From Burkholderiales bacterium (GTDB taxonomy: Bacteria > Pseudomonadota > Gammaproteobacteria > Burkholderiales > Casimicrobiaceae): a stretch of DNA of 64,000 nucleotides. The position numbers and the translations under genes were made by a program. Numbering within the stretch: the stretch's first letter is position 1; each line of letters begins with the position of its first letter. Shown piece after piece: positions 44,940 through 48,820 of this stretch. The notes beneath the pieces are model-generated. The model did not search any database, was not told the DNA's origin, and saw only the letters and a program-made list of their open reading frames with translations. The stretch covers positions 1 to 64,000 of the forward strand of contig CAJPFI010000033.1 in NCBI GenBank assembly GCA_905339295.1, given 5' to 3'.

Positions 44940-46373
44940 TCAGCACGCGGTCGGCGCGTCGCGCCCACGCGCGGGTGCCGGCAGGAACGAACCTGGCGAC
45001 CTCGCGTAGAGCTTGAGCAGCAGCCGGCTGACGTCGAGGTCGAACGACGGGCGCACCGGCGCGTCGAGAATCATGCCGAGCTCGCCTTCGTCGCGGGCCG
45101 TGCCGATCCAGTGCCAGTCGCGCACGACATGCACGTCGGTGCGCGAACCGTCGGGCGAGGCTTCACGCACGAGCGCAGGTCCCTCCCACGGCCATGAGGG
45201 AATCGCCTCCGCGGCGATCGCGTCACGAAGCCTTGCGTCGTGAGCGTCCGCCGGCTCCGCGCCGACGCACGCCCCTTCGCAACGCCGCAACTGGCGCGCG
45301 AAGCAGGGACCGTCCCGTCGCTCGAGCCCGAGCCGCGTCCAGCACAGCCGGTGCTCGGCGGCGAGCGACTGCAGCGCCGCGCGCATCGCCCGCTTCGACG
45401 AGTACGGTCCCCATGCGCCGGGAACGGACGCCGGGTCGACGTCGTCCGCGCGCACGAACGCGGGCCGCCCGTCGTCGCCGATCGTCATCACGCCGGCGTC
45501 CTGCTTGCGCCGCAGTGCGCGATTGTGCGCAGGAAGCGCAGACTTGACCAGCGCGGCTTCGCGCAGCAGCGCGCCCAGCTCGCCGGCCGTGGTCTCGACC
45601 TCGATGCGGCGGATCTCGGCGGAGAGACGCAGGTCGGTCTCGTGCTGCCAGTCCGAGCAGAAGTGCGCGGCGACGCGGTCGCGCAGGTGGATGCTCTTGC
45701 CGACGTAGAGCGGCAGCGGGTTGTCGCCGTAGAACAGGTAGACGCCGGGCGCATCGGGGATCGCGTCGAGCGCGTCGGGCGCGAGTTGCGGCGGAAGGCT
45801 CGGGATTCTGAGCAGGCGCTTCACGGCCACCTCGATGTCGGCGGCGGGCAGGCTCGCATAGAGCTTGCGCACGAACAGCCACAGCGCGCGCGCGTCGCCG
45901 AGCGCGCGGTGGCGCGCGCCGGGATCGAGCCCGTGGCGCGCGATCACCGCGTCGAGTCCATGGCTCGACGCTTCCGGATCGAGTCTGCGCGACAGGCGCA
46001 CGGTGCACAGCACGCGCGGCGAGAACGCCGTCCCGACGCGCGCGAACTCGTGCTTGAGGAAGCCGAAGTCGAAGCGCGCGTTGTGCGCGACGAACAGGCA
46101 TCCGTCCAGCCGCTCGGCCACGTCGCGCGCCAGAGAGGCGAACGCGGGCGCGCCGCGCACCATCGCGTCCGTGATGCCGGTGAGGGCCTGGATGGCGGCC
46201 GGAATCGGCACGCCGGGGTCGACGAGCGACGACCATTCGTCCACGCGGGGCGGACCGCCCGCGGGATCGGTGTCGACGCGGACGACGCCGATCTCGGTCA
46301 CCCGGTCGAACGCGGCCCGCGTGCCGGTGGTCTCCAGATCGACGAAGGCGAGGGCGGGGGCGAAGAGCTTCAC
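44940..46373 (-). CDS. DnaQ-type exonuclease fused to a GIY-YIG nuclease (Cho/UvrC-like)
   Basis: The GTG at 46373 gives 477 residues starting directly in the DnaQ fold; a TTG at 46418 would add 15. The exonuclease domain (residues 1-175) has FVDLETTG, VAHNARFDFGFLK and HRALGDARALW, the DEDDh catalytic set. The GIY-YIG domain (about 205-290) has GVYLFYGDNPLPLYVGKS, as in the UvrC N-terminus and Cho. Cys residues follow in GPCFARQLRRCEGACVG. Such fusions are known and are thought to incise damaged DNA. It is divergent from a LexA-like gene, with palindromic operators between. Confidence 0.9.
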   Translation of the reverse strand: MKLFAPALAFVDLETTGTRAAFDRVTEIGVVRVDTDPAGGPPRVDEWSSLVDPGVPIPAAIQALTGITDAMVRGAPAFASLARDVAERLDGCLFVAHNARFDFGFLKHEFARVGTAFSPRVLCTVRLSRRLDPEASSHGLDAVIARHGLDPGARHRALGDARALWLFVRKLYASLPAADIEVAVKRLLRIPSLPPQLAPDALDAIPDAPGVYLFYGDNPLPLYVGKSIHLRDRVAAHFCSDWQHETDLRLSAEIRRIEVETTAGELGALLREAALVKSALPAHNRALRRKQDAGVMTIGDDGRPAFVRADDVDPASVPGAWGPYSSKRAMRAALQSLAAEHRLCWTRLGLERRDGPCFARQLRRCEGACVGAEPADAHDARLRDAIAAEAIPSWPWEGPALVREASPDGSRTDVHVVRDWHWIGTARDEGELGMILDAPVRPSFDLDVSRLLLKLYARSPGSFLPAPARGRDAPTAC

Positions 46374-46436: not shown

Positions 46437-46465
46437 TTGACGGGCGAACGATCGTTCGTTATCGT
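46437..46465 (+). promoter_or_regulatory. Promoter of the LexA-like gene
   Basis: TTGACG (46437-46442) and TATCGT (46460-46465) are separated by exactly 17 bases, and operator copy 1 fills that spacer. A start site about 7 bases after the -10 box would coincide with the ATG at 46472, so the mRNA may be leaderless. Confidence 0.65.
46445..46458. promoter_or_regulatory. LexA-like operator copy 1 (perfect palindrome)
   Basis: CGAACGATCGTTCG is a perfect 14-bp palindrome lying between the -35 and -10 boxes. Its GAAC-N4-GTTC core resembles the SOS box of Bacillus and mycobacteria, not the CTGT-N8-ACAG box usual in betaproteobacteria. Confidence 0.75.
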
Positions 46466-46471
46466 ACCATC

Positions 46472-47047
46472 ATGTCGAACGATCGTTCCTACCTGCAGTC
46501 GCTGCAGGATTACTACGCGCGCCATCGGGCGCTGCCGTCGTATGCGTCGATCGGCGAACTGCTCGGGCTCAAGTCGAAGTCGTCGGTCGCCGCCCTGGTG
46601 GCCCGGCTGAAGCTCGCGGGCTTCCTCGAGTCGACGCCGGACCGCAGGCTCGCGCCGACGCGCCGGTTCTTCGCCCGGCCGCTCGCGGGCGCGCCGGTTC
46701 GCGCAGGGCTGCCGGAGCGTGTCGACGACGCGGACGCCGACGCGCTCACGATCGACGACTACCTGATCGAGCGCCCGTCGCAGACGGTGCTCGTGCGCGT
46801 CAAGGGCGATTCGATGGTCGACGCCGGCATCCTCGAGGGCGATCTCGTCGTCGTCGAGAAGCAGCCGACTGCGAAGAAGGGCGACATCGTCGTGGCGATC
46901 GTCGACGGACAGTTCACGCTGAAGCGCCTCGACGTCGACCGCGGCCAGTTCATCCTGCGCGCAGAGAACAAGGCCTATGCGCCGATCCGGCCCGAAGGGG
47001 CGCTCGAGGTATTCGGCGTGATGGTCGGGCTGGTTCGCAAGATGTAG
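46472..47047 (+). CDS. LexA-like S24 family repressor
   Basis: The 191-residue protein has an N-terminal winged-helix-like domain (residues 1-65; LPSYASIGELLGLKSKSSVAAL) and a C-terminal S24 autoprotease domain. The predicted cleavage site is Ala78-Gly79 (VRAGLPE), with Ser114 in KGDSM and Lys151 in FTLKRL. The Ser-Lys spacing of 37 equals that of E. coli LexA. It probably represses its own gene and perhaps the divergent nuclease, with RecA-stimulated self-cleavage after DNA damage. No ribosome site precedes the ATG. It could be a second LexA besides a canonical one elsewhere. Confidence 0.85.
   Translation: MSNDRSYLQSLQDYYARHRALPSYASIGELLGLKSKSSVAALVARLKLAGFLESTPDRRLAPTRRFFARPLAGAPVRAGLPERVDDADADALTIDDYLIERPSQTVLVRVKGDSMVDAGILEGDLVVVEKQPTAKKGDIVVAIVDGQFTLKRLDVDRGQFILRAENKAYAPIRPEGALEVFGVMVGLVRKM
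46476..46488. promoter_or_regulatory. LexA-like operator copy 2 within the first codons
   Basis: CGAACGATCGTTC repeats the core of copy 1 inside codons 2-6 of the repressor gene. The two 12-bp GAACGATCGTTC cores are centred at 46451.5 and 46482.5, exactly 31 bp or about three helical turns apart, which would allow cooperative binding. Confidence 0.7.
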
Positions 47048-47058
47048 CTCGCGGGTGT

Positions 47059-47150
47059 GGGTTTGGGGTCAGAGCTGTAATTCTTCTTTCGGCGACGACG
47101 GTTGCTCGTAGCCCCTTCGCGAGAAGAATTACAGCTCTGACCCCAAACCC
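47059..47150. repeat. Long inverted repeat (REP-like) with GGGGTCAGAGC ends
   Basis: The 29-base arms at 47059-47087 and 47122-47150 are perfectly complementary and contain TTGGGGTCAGAGCTGTAATT. The 34-base centre can itself pair in part (GGC-ACGA with TCGT-GCC). Similar GGGGTCAGA-type sequences are dispersed in many proteobacterial genomes, in part beside REP-associated transposases. It lies between the convergent LexA-like and GGDEF genes, where it may terminate both, and the right arm supplies the GGDEF gene's last codons and stop. Confidence 0.8.
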
Positions 47151-48820
47151 GACCCCGCCACCCGATTGCGGCCCGCCGCCTTCGCGCGGTACATCGCGGC
47201 ATCCGCGGCCCGCAGCATCGCGTCGGGGCTCGCGAGCGTCGTGTCCGCGCACCAGCCGATGCTGACGGTGATTGCGAGCCCGGGCGCGAACCCGGACCAG
47301 TCGCGGCCCGCGACCGCGGCGCGCACCTTCTCGCAGGCCGCCGCCGCGGCGTCCGCCCCCGTCTCGACGAGCAGCATCACGAACTCCTCGCCGCCGTAGC
47401 GCGCGACGAGGTCGGTGTGGCGCATCTGGCCCGCGAGGACGTTGGCGACGGCCTTGAGCACCGTGTCGCCCGTCGCGTGCGACCAGCGGTCGTTGACGTC
47501 CTTGAAGTGGTCGATGTCGACGATCGCCACCGCGAGCGGGCGGCTGTAGCGCACGGCGCGGTCGAATTCGTCGGAGAGCCGCTGTTCGAGCCGGCGGCGG
47601 TTCGCGAGCCCGGTCAGGCTGTCTTCGCGCGTCTGGCGCTCCAGCTCGACGACCAGGCGCGACTTCTGCGCGTCGGAGGCCGCCAGGTCGAGGTTGAGCG
47701 CCGCGAGGCGGGCGTTGGCCTTCGCGAGCTCGTCCTGCTTCGCGCGCAACAGCTCGGCTTCGCGCTGCGCCGCGGTGACCTGATAGCGGATCGACAGGAC
47801 CTTGAGGCGGCGGTCGGACGCTTCCGAGAGCAGCGCGCGCTCGATCTGGCGGGCCAGGCGCAGGTGCCTCACCGCCTGCGCCGTCGCGCCGCAGCGCTCG
47901 TGCAGGTCGGCGAGCGCGTCGTGCGCCTGCATTTCGCTGGTCCGCAATCCGTGGCGCTGCGCCGCGTCGAGCGCGGACGAGAGATGCGAGCGCGCCTCGT
48001 CCGCGCGCGCGGTCCGGTCGCACACGCGGCCCAGCGCCAGCGAAGCGTTGACCACGCCCTCGCCGTAGCCGGCGGCCGACGAACGATCGAGCGCCTCGCG
48101 CAGCTTGCGCTCCGCGTCGTCGAGCCTGCCCATGCGCTCGAGAGTCGCGCCGAGGCTGGTGAGCGCGCCCGCCTGCCCGATCATGTCGCCCGCGTCACGG
48201 AACGCCGCGAGCGCCGACTCGAGCGTCGCGAGCGATTCGTCGAAGCGCCCGAGGTACCTCAGGTTGATGCCGATGCTGTCGAGCGTGCGCGCGCGCTCGA
48301 GCGGATCCGCGTCGGCGCCCGGAAGGGCGAGGCTGCGCCGGTACCATTCGAGGCCGTCCTTCGGACGGCCCGCGCGCGAGTGCACGACGCCGATCGTGCG
48401 CATCGCGGCGGCCTGCGCGCGCGCGTCGCCCGCGGCCTCGGCGATCGCGAGCGCGCGCAGCAGATGAGCGAGCGCCTGCGGCGCGTCGCCCAGCGTGCCG
48501 TAGACCTGGCCGATCCCGCGCAGGGCATCGGCGCGGCCGGGCTCGTCGTGCGTCGCCTGGAATCCCGCGAGCGCCTCGCGGTAGGCCTCGAGCGCGCCGG
48601 TCTCGTCCAGGGCGAGCTCCGCGGCGCGTCCCGCGAGGTAGCGGGCCCGCGCCCGGGCGCCGGGGTCGGACGCGGCGGTCGCGAGGGCGGAGGCCTCGGC
48701 CGCGAGGCGTGCAGCGCTCCTTGCGTCGCTCGCGAGCGCATCGGACGACGCGGCGATCAGCGCCGCGAGGCGGTCCGACGTCGCCGCCCCGCGGGCGGGG
48801 AACGGCGCGGCGCCGCTCAC
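47129..48820 (-). CDS. TPR-containing diguanylate cyclase (GGDEF)
   Basis: The GTG start at 48820 overlaps the upstream molybdoenzyme stop (GTGA). The 563-residue protein has about eight TPR-like repeats (residues 40-330, for example LGDAPQALAHLLRALAIAEAAGD), then a coiled coil near 345-385. The GGDEF domain at about 395-555 has VDIDHFKDVNDRWSHATGD and the active-site ARYGGEEFV. No signal peptide or transmembrane segment is seen, so it is probably cytoplasmic and makes c-di-GMP in response to a TPR-bound partner. The last residues (SGLGSEL) come from the inverted repeat. Confidence 0.88.
   Translation of the reverse strand: MSGAAPFPARGAATSDRLAALIAASSDALASDARSAARLAAEASALATAASDPGARARARYLAGRAAELALDETGALEAYREALAGFQATHDEPGRADALRGIGQVYGTLGDAPQALAHLLRALAIAEAAGDARAQAAAMRTIGVVHSRAGRPKDGLEWYRRSLALPGADADPLERARTLDSIGINLRYLGRFDESLATLESALAAFRDAGDMIGQAGALTSLGATLERMGRLDDAERKLREALDRSSAAGYGEGVVNASLALGRVCDRTARADEARSHLSSALDAAQRHGLRTSEMQAHDALADLHERCGATAQAVRHLRLARQIERALLSEASDRRLKVLSIRYQVTAAQREAELLRAKQDELAKANARLAALNLDLAASDAQKSRLVVELERQTREDSLTGLANRRRLEQRLSDEFDRAVRYSRPLAVAIVDIDHFKDVNDRWSHATGDTVLKAVANVLAGQMRHTDLVARYGGEEFVMLLVETGADAAAAACEKVRAAVAGRDWSGFAPGLAITVSIGWCADTTLASPDAMLRAADAAMYRAKAAGRNRVAGSGLGSEL

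Follow-up and report, generated by a model that had tools for sequence, protein, structure and literature searches.

A noncanonical LexA-like protein as the probable main SOS repressor in a Casimicrobiaceae genome that also encodes a canonical-type LexA

Which repressor governs the SOS genes of a betaproteobacterium whose lexA-like gene carries a Gram-positive-like operator word? The window, the whole 64-kb stretch of DNA analysed here, encodes a 191-aa LexA-like protein whose promoter and first codons carry two identical copies of GAACGATCGTTC, 31 bp apart from start to start (Table 1), as an earlier note on this DNA had reported and as the sequence confirms. One source gives GAAC-N4-GTTC as the operator of LexA/DinR in Bacillus and mycobacteria (PMC3323433), and another, citing work from 2015, gives CTGT-N8-ACAG as the word used in most Betaproteobacteria (PMC6595937). 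The earlier note proposed that the repressor runs a second, separate damage regulon. We conclude, with a probability of roughly 0.8, that the noncanonical LexA is the main SOS repressor of this genome and that the canonical-type LexA is left over the mutagenesis genes.

Table 1 Features of the lexA-like locus and of the second lexA locus. Positions are those of the window, except in the last row.
Feature	Position	Strand	Basis or remark
-35 box TTGACG of lexA-like gene	46437..46442	+	sequence; TTGAC-N17 geometry recurs in orthologue loci
Operator 1, GAACGATCGTTC, in -35/-10 spacer	46446..46457	+	sequence; putative site
-10 box TATCGT of lexA-like gene	46460..46465	+	sequence
Predicted transcription start = A of ATG (putatively leaderless mRNA)	46472	+	6-nt gap, no Shine-Dalgarno-like motif
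Operator 2, GAACGATCGTTC, over codons 2-6 of lexA-like gene	46477..46488	+	sequence; putative site
LexA-like repressor of noncanonical type (191 aa) with predicted N-terminal winged helix, A78-G79 cleavage site and S114/K151 dyad	46472..47047	+	residue roles by analogy with LexA
Divergent gene: DnaQ-like exonuclease fused to UvrC/Cho-like nuclease	44940..46373	-	
Canonical-type LexA with imuA-imuB; dnaE2 9.4 kb on; TACCGT-N8-ACGGTA before each	L171 2085-2104, 2189-2881; L272 1304-1323 (G000:C21:157426 and 166803)		

The 191-aa protein most likely belongs to the known noncanonical betaproteobacterial LexA group (Sideroxydans/Gallionella type), as judged from domain matches and a tree. Its S24 peptidase domain (PF00717) scores 93.8 bits against a cut-off of 23.3, and A78, G79, S114 and K151 are invariant in 15 aligned orthologue sequences; by analogy with LexA, we take A78-G79 to be the cleavage site and S114/K151 to be the Ser-Lys dyad. 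The N-terminal domain has predicted helices at residues 2-18, 24-31 and 36-48 followed by strands, and matches the LexA DNA-binding domain (PF01726) weakly, at 21.0 bits under a cut-off of 23.7. The curated NCBIfam lexA cut-off (TIGR00498) is narrowly missed (107.1 versus 110.95 bits), and a structure model of the protein (pLDDT 80, pTM 0.67) has LexA 3k2z as its best fold match (E 2.1e-12). In phmmer searches the protein scores better against UmuD (2.6e-22) than against LexA (7.6e-14). We rejected its identification as UmuD, a short S24 protein without a DNA-binding domain that is encoded beside umuC, because it has 191 aa and a predicted DNA-binding domain. A UmuD origin of the peptidase domain was also set aside: pairwise scores favour it, but an unrooted tree keeps UmuD, canonical LexA and noncanonical LexA apart as three separate groups. 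In that tree, a quick one built from few columns of the C-terminal domain only and with group labels set beforehand, the protein clusters with sequences from Sideroxydans and Gallionella and away from both canonical LexA and UmuD, and all 33 of 33 noncanonical rows fall on one side of a branch with an SH-aLRT of 96 (canonical, 100). Noncanonical rows were thinned to one in three and canonical rows to one in two; C-terminal pieces shorter than 105 aa and L018 were dropped, and S. lithotrophicus itself is absent from the rows. L018 is a third S24-type protein of this genome (G000:C59:4544-4771, minus strand) in which no DNA-binding domain family was found; by eye, its neighbour gene seems to encode an iron-sulfur/flavin reductase.

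Orthologues of the protein are widespread in the order. Full-length matches with at least 49% identity were found in 53 of 200 sampled genomes, its own included, and the 30 of these 53 with the best matches were used in later tests. The 30 comparison genomes without an orthologue were hand-picked, not drawn at random, among genomes with weak matches, and the 21 of 200 genomes without any match are absent from them. Relatives among the 80 of 591 loci listed include Betaproteobacteria and Burkholderiales at 82, 79 and 76%, members of Sulfuricella, Iodobacter, Andreprevotia, Sideroxydans, Gallionella, Nitrosovibrio and Chitinimonas, and weaker relatives in Patescibacteria and Verrucomicrobia. A metagenome-assembled genome titled Bordetella parapertussis (L117) encodes a 59% orthologue with a GAAC operator, and its title may be misassigned. 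In some loci the orthologue is the first gene of a lexA-umuD-umuC cluster or of a cluster of lexA and a Y-family polymerase gene (L286, L094).

The operator word recurs with the gene. Of 92 orthologue loci (L045-L074, L091-L151 and L154, with the 18 more distant loci L152, L153 and L155-L170 left out), 71 have an 8/8 match to GAAC-N4-GTTC in the stretch from -200 to +40 relative to the matched start. The set contains duplicates (L051 and L094 are identical over 567 bases; the UmuD of L074 and that of L127 are identical). Sites of at least 7/8 lie near the start in 76 of the 92 loci and occur twice in 37. When eight rearranged palindromes were sought in the same stretches, seven were found in 0-1 loci and ACGA-N4-TCGT in 11 of 92, an excess perhaps due to overlap with the real site. 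No site even at 7/8 was found near the lexA start in the Methylobacillus and Nitrosovibrio loci, among others. In family f26 (genomes G116 and G191; loci L064 and L066) the word before lexA has shifted to GTACGTTCGTAC, and no site matching it was found before recA in that family.

The promoter of the lexA-like gene reads TTGACG, 17 bp, TATCGT, 6 nt and then the ATG at 46472. Across the 92 loci, the gap between the end of the -10 box and the ATG is 6-8 nt in 28, 27-40 nt in 52 and of other length in 9, with no ATG found in 3; promoter choice gave a bonus to operator-bearing pairs, and the gaps were unchanged without it. Of the 28 short-gap loci, 1 has a Shine-Dalgarno-like motif ahead of that ATG, compared with 19 of the 61 others. 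The lexA mRNA is predicted to be leaderless here and in 28 of the 92 loci.

Operator 2 starts at the third base of codon 2, ends at the second base of codon 6 and encodes N-D-R-S through the codons GAT and CGT. In nine genes of this genome, GAT makes up 35 of 252 Asp codons (14%) and CGT 24 of 398 Arg codons (6%); inside the lexA-like gene itself the counts are 4 of 16 and 2 of 18. The same 12-mer stands at the equivalent place in loci L051, L091, L092, L093 and L094, all five using GAT and CGT, although the first and last of these are one gene and are not independent. The recurrence of these codons in related loci suggests that operator 2 is under selection as DNA. That it is a mere coincidence of conserved Asn-Asp codons and no operator at all seems unlikely to us: many orthologues do begin M-x-N-D without a full GAAC-N4-GTTC site, and L092 is uninformative because GAT is its commoner Asp codon (9 of 14), but GAT and CGT, rare in this genome, are present here and in all five related loci, and the doubled sites noted above extend through 37 loci. 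Two distant LexA relatives (L155 and L163, at 41 and 37% identity, from Taylorbacteria and an unplaced bacterium) also carry GAAC-N4-GTTC over codons 2-6.

Other features flank the gene. The divergent exonuclease-Cho gene may share operator 1 with it. As a fixed partner of lexA the exonuclease-Cho gene was rejected: the flanks covered (1.5 or 3 kb, shorter at contig ends) held a match in no more than 7 of 109 loci, and two of these matches were partial. A large inverted repeat lies just 3' of the lexA stop (47051-47158; 37-nt arms, 92%, core GGGGTCAGAGCTGTAATTC) and is presumably REP-like.

The regulon question turns on where else the word stands. In the window GAAC-N4-GTTC matches twice, both times at the lexA operators, and 15 of 100 dinucleotide shuffles of the window contain at least two loose matches, so chance by itself could account for the loose pattern there. 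Genome-wide, the loose pattern has 47 sites against a Markov expectation of about 42 (reversed control pattern, 11), with many 8/8 sites inside genes, and this total was rejected as proof of a regulon. Also rejected were totals of GAACGNNCGTTC as a marker of the repressor (137 in 30 genomes with it, 138 in 30 without) and a scan for CGAACGNNCGTTCG that tolerated as many as two mismatches (1167 matches versus 486 for the control), which is too loose for use. Of three one-mismatch places for CGAACGNNCGTTCG viewed by hand among the matches listed, the ruvA one alone lies in a promoter. The case for a regulon therefore rests on placement. The exact 12-mer GAACGATCGTTC has four copies in the 4.03-Mb genome versus about 0.6 expected under a first-order Markov model of the window, and all four stand at gene starts: two at the lexA-like gene and, among the further sites that the earlier note had advised looking for, one before recA and one before uvrB. 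The recA copy (C50:66135) lies ahead of a gene with a RecA model match; the uvrB copy (C21:56079) starts 43 bp from the uvrB ATG, with UvrB domains confirmed by family search. Both are close to -10-like boxes, and a one-mismatch copy (7/8), GAACGATCGTGC, starts 53 bp upstream of ruvA, directly next to a GATAAT box. GAACGNNCGTTC, taken as the mark of the noncanonical type, thus stands before both the repressor's own gene and recA. Exact copies ahead of recA and uvrB, with the 7/8 copy at ruvA, point to core SOS genes rather than to a side regulon, and the separate damage regulon proposed earlier is not supported.

Two further matches in the genome are recorded for their own sake. Upstream of an N6-adenine methylase gene, GAACGTTCGTTC with TAGAAT 6 nt behind it makes up what looks like a promoter (L172 3757-3768 and 3814-5889; G000:C43). 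The methylase resembles the MADS defence proteins MAD2 and MAD5, below their cut-offs, and is possibly a damage-controlled modification or defence gene. GAACATTCGTTC lies at L002 1501-1512 (G000:C1:37814), roughly 300 bp ahead of a gene that by eye resembles mraZ.

The placement before recA follows the repressor across genomes. When the 300 bp counted from the FGKG motif close to the N-terminus of RecA were scanned, 11 of 29 orthologue genomes had an 8/8 GAAC site, against 0 of 27 genomes lacking an orthologue (Fisher p 0.0003), and the figures for CTGT-N8-ACAG at 8/8 were 0 of 29 and 8 of 27; one of the 30 positives (G122, no recA match) and three of the 30 negatives (FGKG motif not found) were excluded. 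In the other 18 of 29 orthologue genomes no 8/8 site was found before recA, including in two further scans reaching up to 1.3 kb upstream; one of these genomes is G014, which has a lexA identical to the one in Sulfuricella sp. T08. For uvrB, the exact 12-mer lies at -54 here and at -59 in G083, a genome of the same family, and one more among the 30 orthologue genomes surveyed has an 8/8 site at -288, which may be due to chance. The remaining 27 of 30 have no 8/8 site at uvrB; six permuted palindromes gave 1 match in 180 control tests. At ruvA, 0 of 30 orthologue genomes have an 8/8 site and 4 of 30, this genome among them, a 7/8 site. These counts bear on the idea that the protein controls itself, and perhaps the divergent exonuclease gene, with the recA and uvrB copies coincidental. 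The near-chance number of loose sites fits such autoregulation, as do 12 of 29 orthologue genomes in which both the recA site and a canonical-type LexA are missing, but the association of the recA site with the repressor, the uvrB site common to this genome and G083, and exact 12-mers near -10-like boxes make it highly improbable.

The genome also encodes a second LexA, whose presence the earlier note had named as a point to check. It is a canonical-type protein on C21 that scores 232 bits with TIGR00498, and the genes for ImuA and an ImuB-like protein come after its own. The earlier picture of a LexA-like repressor with a noncanonical, Gram-positive-like predicted operator beside another LexA is supported by sequence. 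Perfect copies of TACCGT-N8-ACGGTA number two in the genome, one before lexA2-imuA-imuB and one at the dnaE2 start; with up to two mismatches the word is no commoner than its control (38 versus 43). It is one base per arm off TACTGT-N8-ACAGTA, found before the LexA of G132, and is likely the operator of the canonical-type LexA. CTGT-N8-ACAG itself is absent from the window and occurs once in the genome (control, 6). The canonical-type LexA therefore does not appear to use the betaproteobacterial code named in the earlier note, and its likely word is a one-step variant, CCGT-N8-ACGG; this variant was absent from the upstream stretches of all 20 of 20 other canonical-type LexA loci scanned. imuA lies beside the canonical-type LexA in G083 also; in genus g2, which belongs to that family and is represented by four genomes, the canonical-type LexA instead has recA as its neighbour. 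A mutagenesis cassette persistently regulated by LexA is described in a published account (PMC3323433).

A canonical LexA that keeps the main SOS genes, with the GAAC-reading repressor running a small second regulon, would suit the presence of the canonical-type protein here and the six other two-repressor genomes whose recA lacks an 8/8 GAAC site. We hold this to be quite improbable, since recA and uvrB bear the exact GAAC 12-mer in this genome, in which the CTGT word is so scarce, and the likely operator of the canonical-type LexA is perfect at lexA2-imuA and dnaE2 only. The division of labour assumed in the earlier note appears to be reversed, with the canonical-type LexA seemingly confined to imuA-imuB and dnaE2.

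With the noncanonical LexA as main SOS repressor, a dimer would bind GAACGATCGTTC in its own -35/-10 spacer and at the second copy just past the start point, and would thereby silence transcription of its own, putatively leaderless, mRNA. Copies of this word close to the -10 boxes of recA, uvrB and ruvA (7/8) would bring these genes under repression. On DNA damage, RecA filaments would prompt the repressor to cut itself between Ala78 and Gly79 through its Ser114/Lys151 dyad, and repression would end. The canonical-type LexA would most likely repress only lexA2-imuA-imuB and dnaE2 via TACCGT-N8-ACGGTA.

Both repressors coexist with a recA site in two genomes (this genome and G083) and without one in six; where the noncanonical LexA is the only one, recA carries the site in nine genomes and lacks it in 12. 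Of the 30 genomes with an orthologue, 8 also encode a canonical-type LexA (among them G045, a weak match at 40%); of the 30 without, 26 do, a figure that is probably inflated because the weak matches used for picking were often the canonical LexA itself. We tentatively suggest that this genome and G083 are caught in the middle of an SOS hand-over, in which the newcomer holds lexA, recA and uvrB and the canonical-type LexA persists beside imuA, here with the drifted word CCGT-N8-ACGG. Regulon uptake would then precede loss of the primary LexA, an order that we regard as conceivable but short of probable and that is opposite to the model set out in PMC8565304, in which the primary LexA is lost before the newcomer takes up the regulon. 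A group-wide switch between leaderless (28/92 loci) and leadered (52/92 loci) lexA mRNA would come in addition to such a hand-over and is advanced with the same reserve. The order of SOS rewiring events becomes readable in a further lineage with both repressors, where four genome states are found: canonical-type LexA only; both, with recA unclaimed; both, with recA claimed; and newcomer only. With these states at hand, comparative genomics and simple gel shifts can put the loss-first model to the test.

The noncanonical LexA type itself is not new, and this genome adds one more case. Sanchez-Alberola et al. (J Bacteriol 197:2622) reportedly described it in 2015 for Sideroxydans, with GAACGaaCGTTC as the operator and a regulon said to include lexA and recA in Sideroxydans and Gallionella. 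The 191-aa protein shares with that type the reported operator word and the tree group; it differs in that a canonical-type LexA is also kept, operator 2 lies over the coding start and the mRNA is predicted to be leaderless. With LexA/DinR of Bacillus and mycobacteria the present word has its operator core in common, but a phmmer search of the PDB with just the DNA-binding domain returned no LexA. For Mycobacterium tuberculosis lexA, PMC2897130 reports a leaderless start shown by experiment; translation start and transcription start coincide there as here, although the start is a prediction here and the LexA group is a different one. Among the titles returned by searches of open-licence literature, none concerned the particular arrangement of this genome. 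Two LexA proteins are mentioned for Pseudomonas putida and Xanthomonas axonopodis in PMC9578287. In those species, as predicted here, the two proteins have different binding words. One of the two LexA proteins of P. putida goes with the mutagenesis cassette. Unlike in P. putida and X. axonopodis, the word before recA in this genome is that of the noncanonical LexA, not that of the canonical-type protein.
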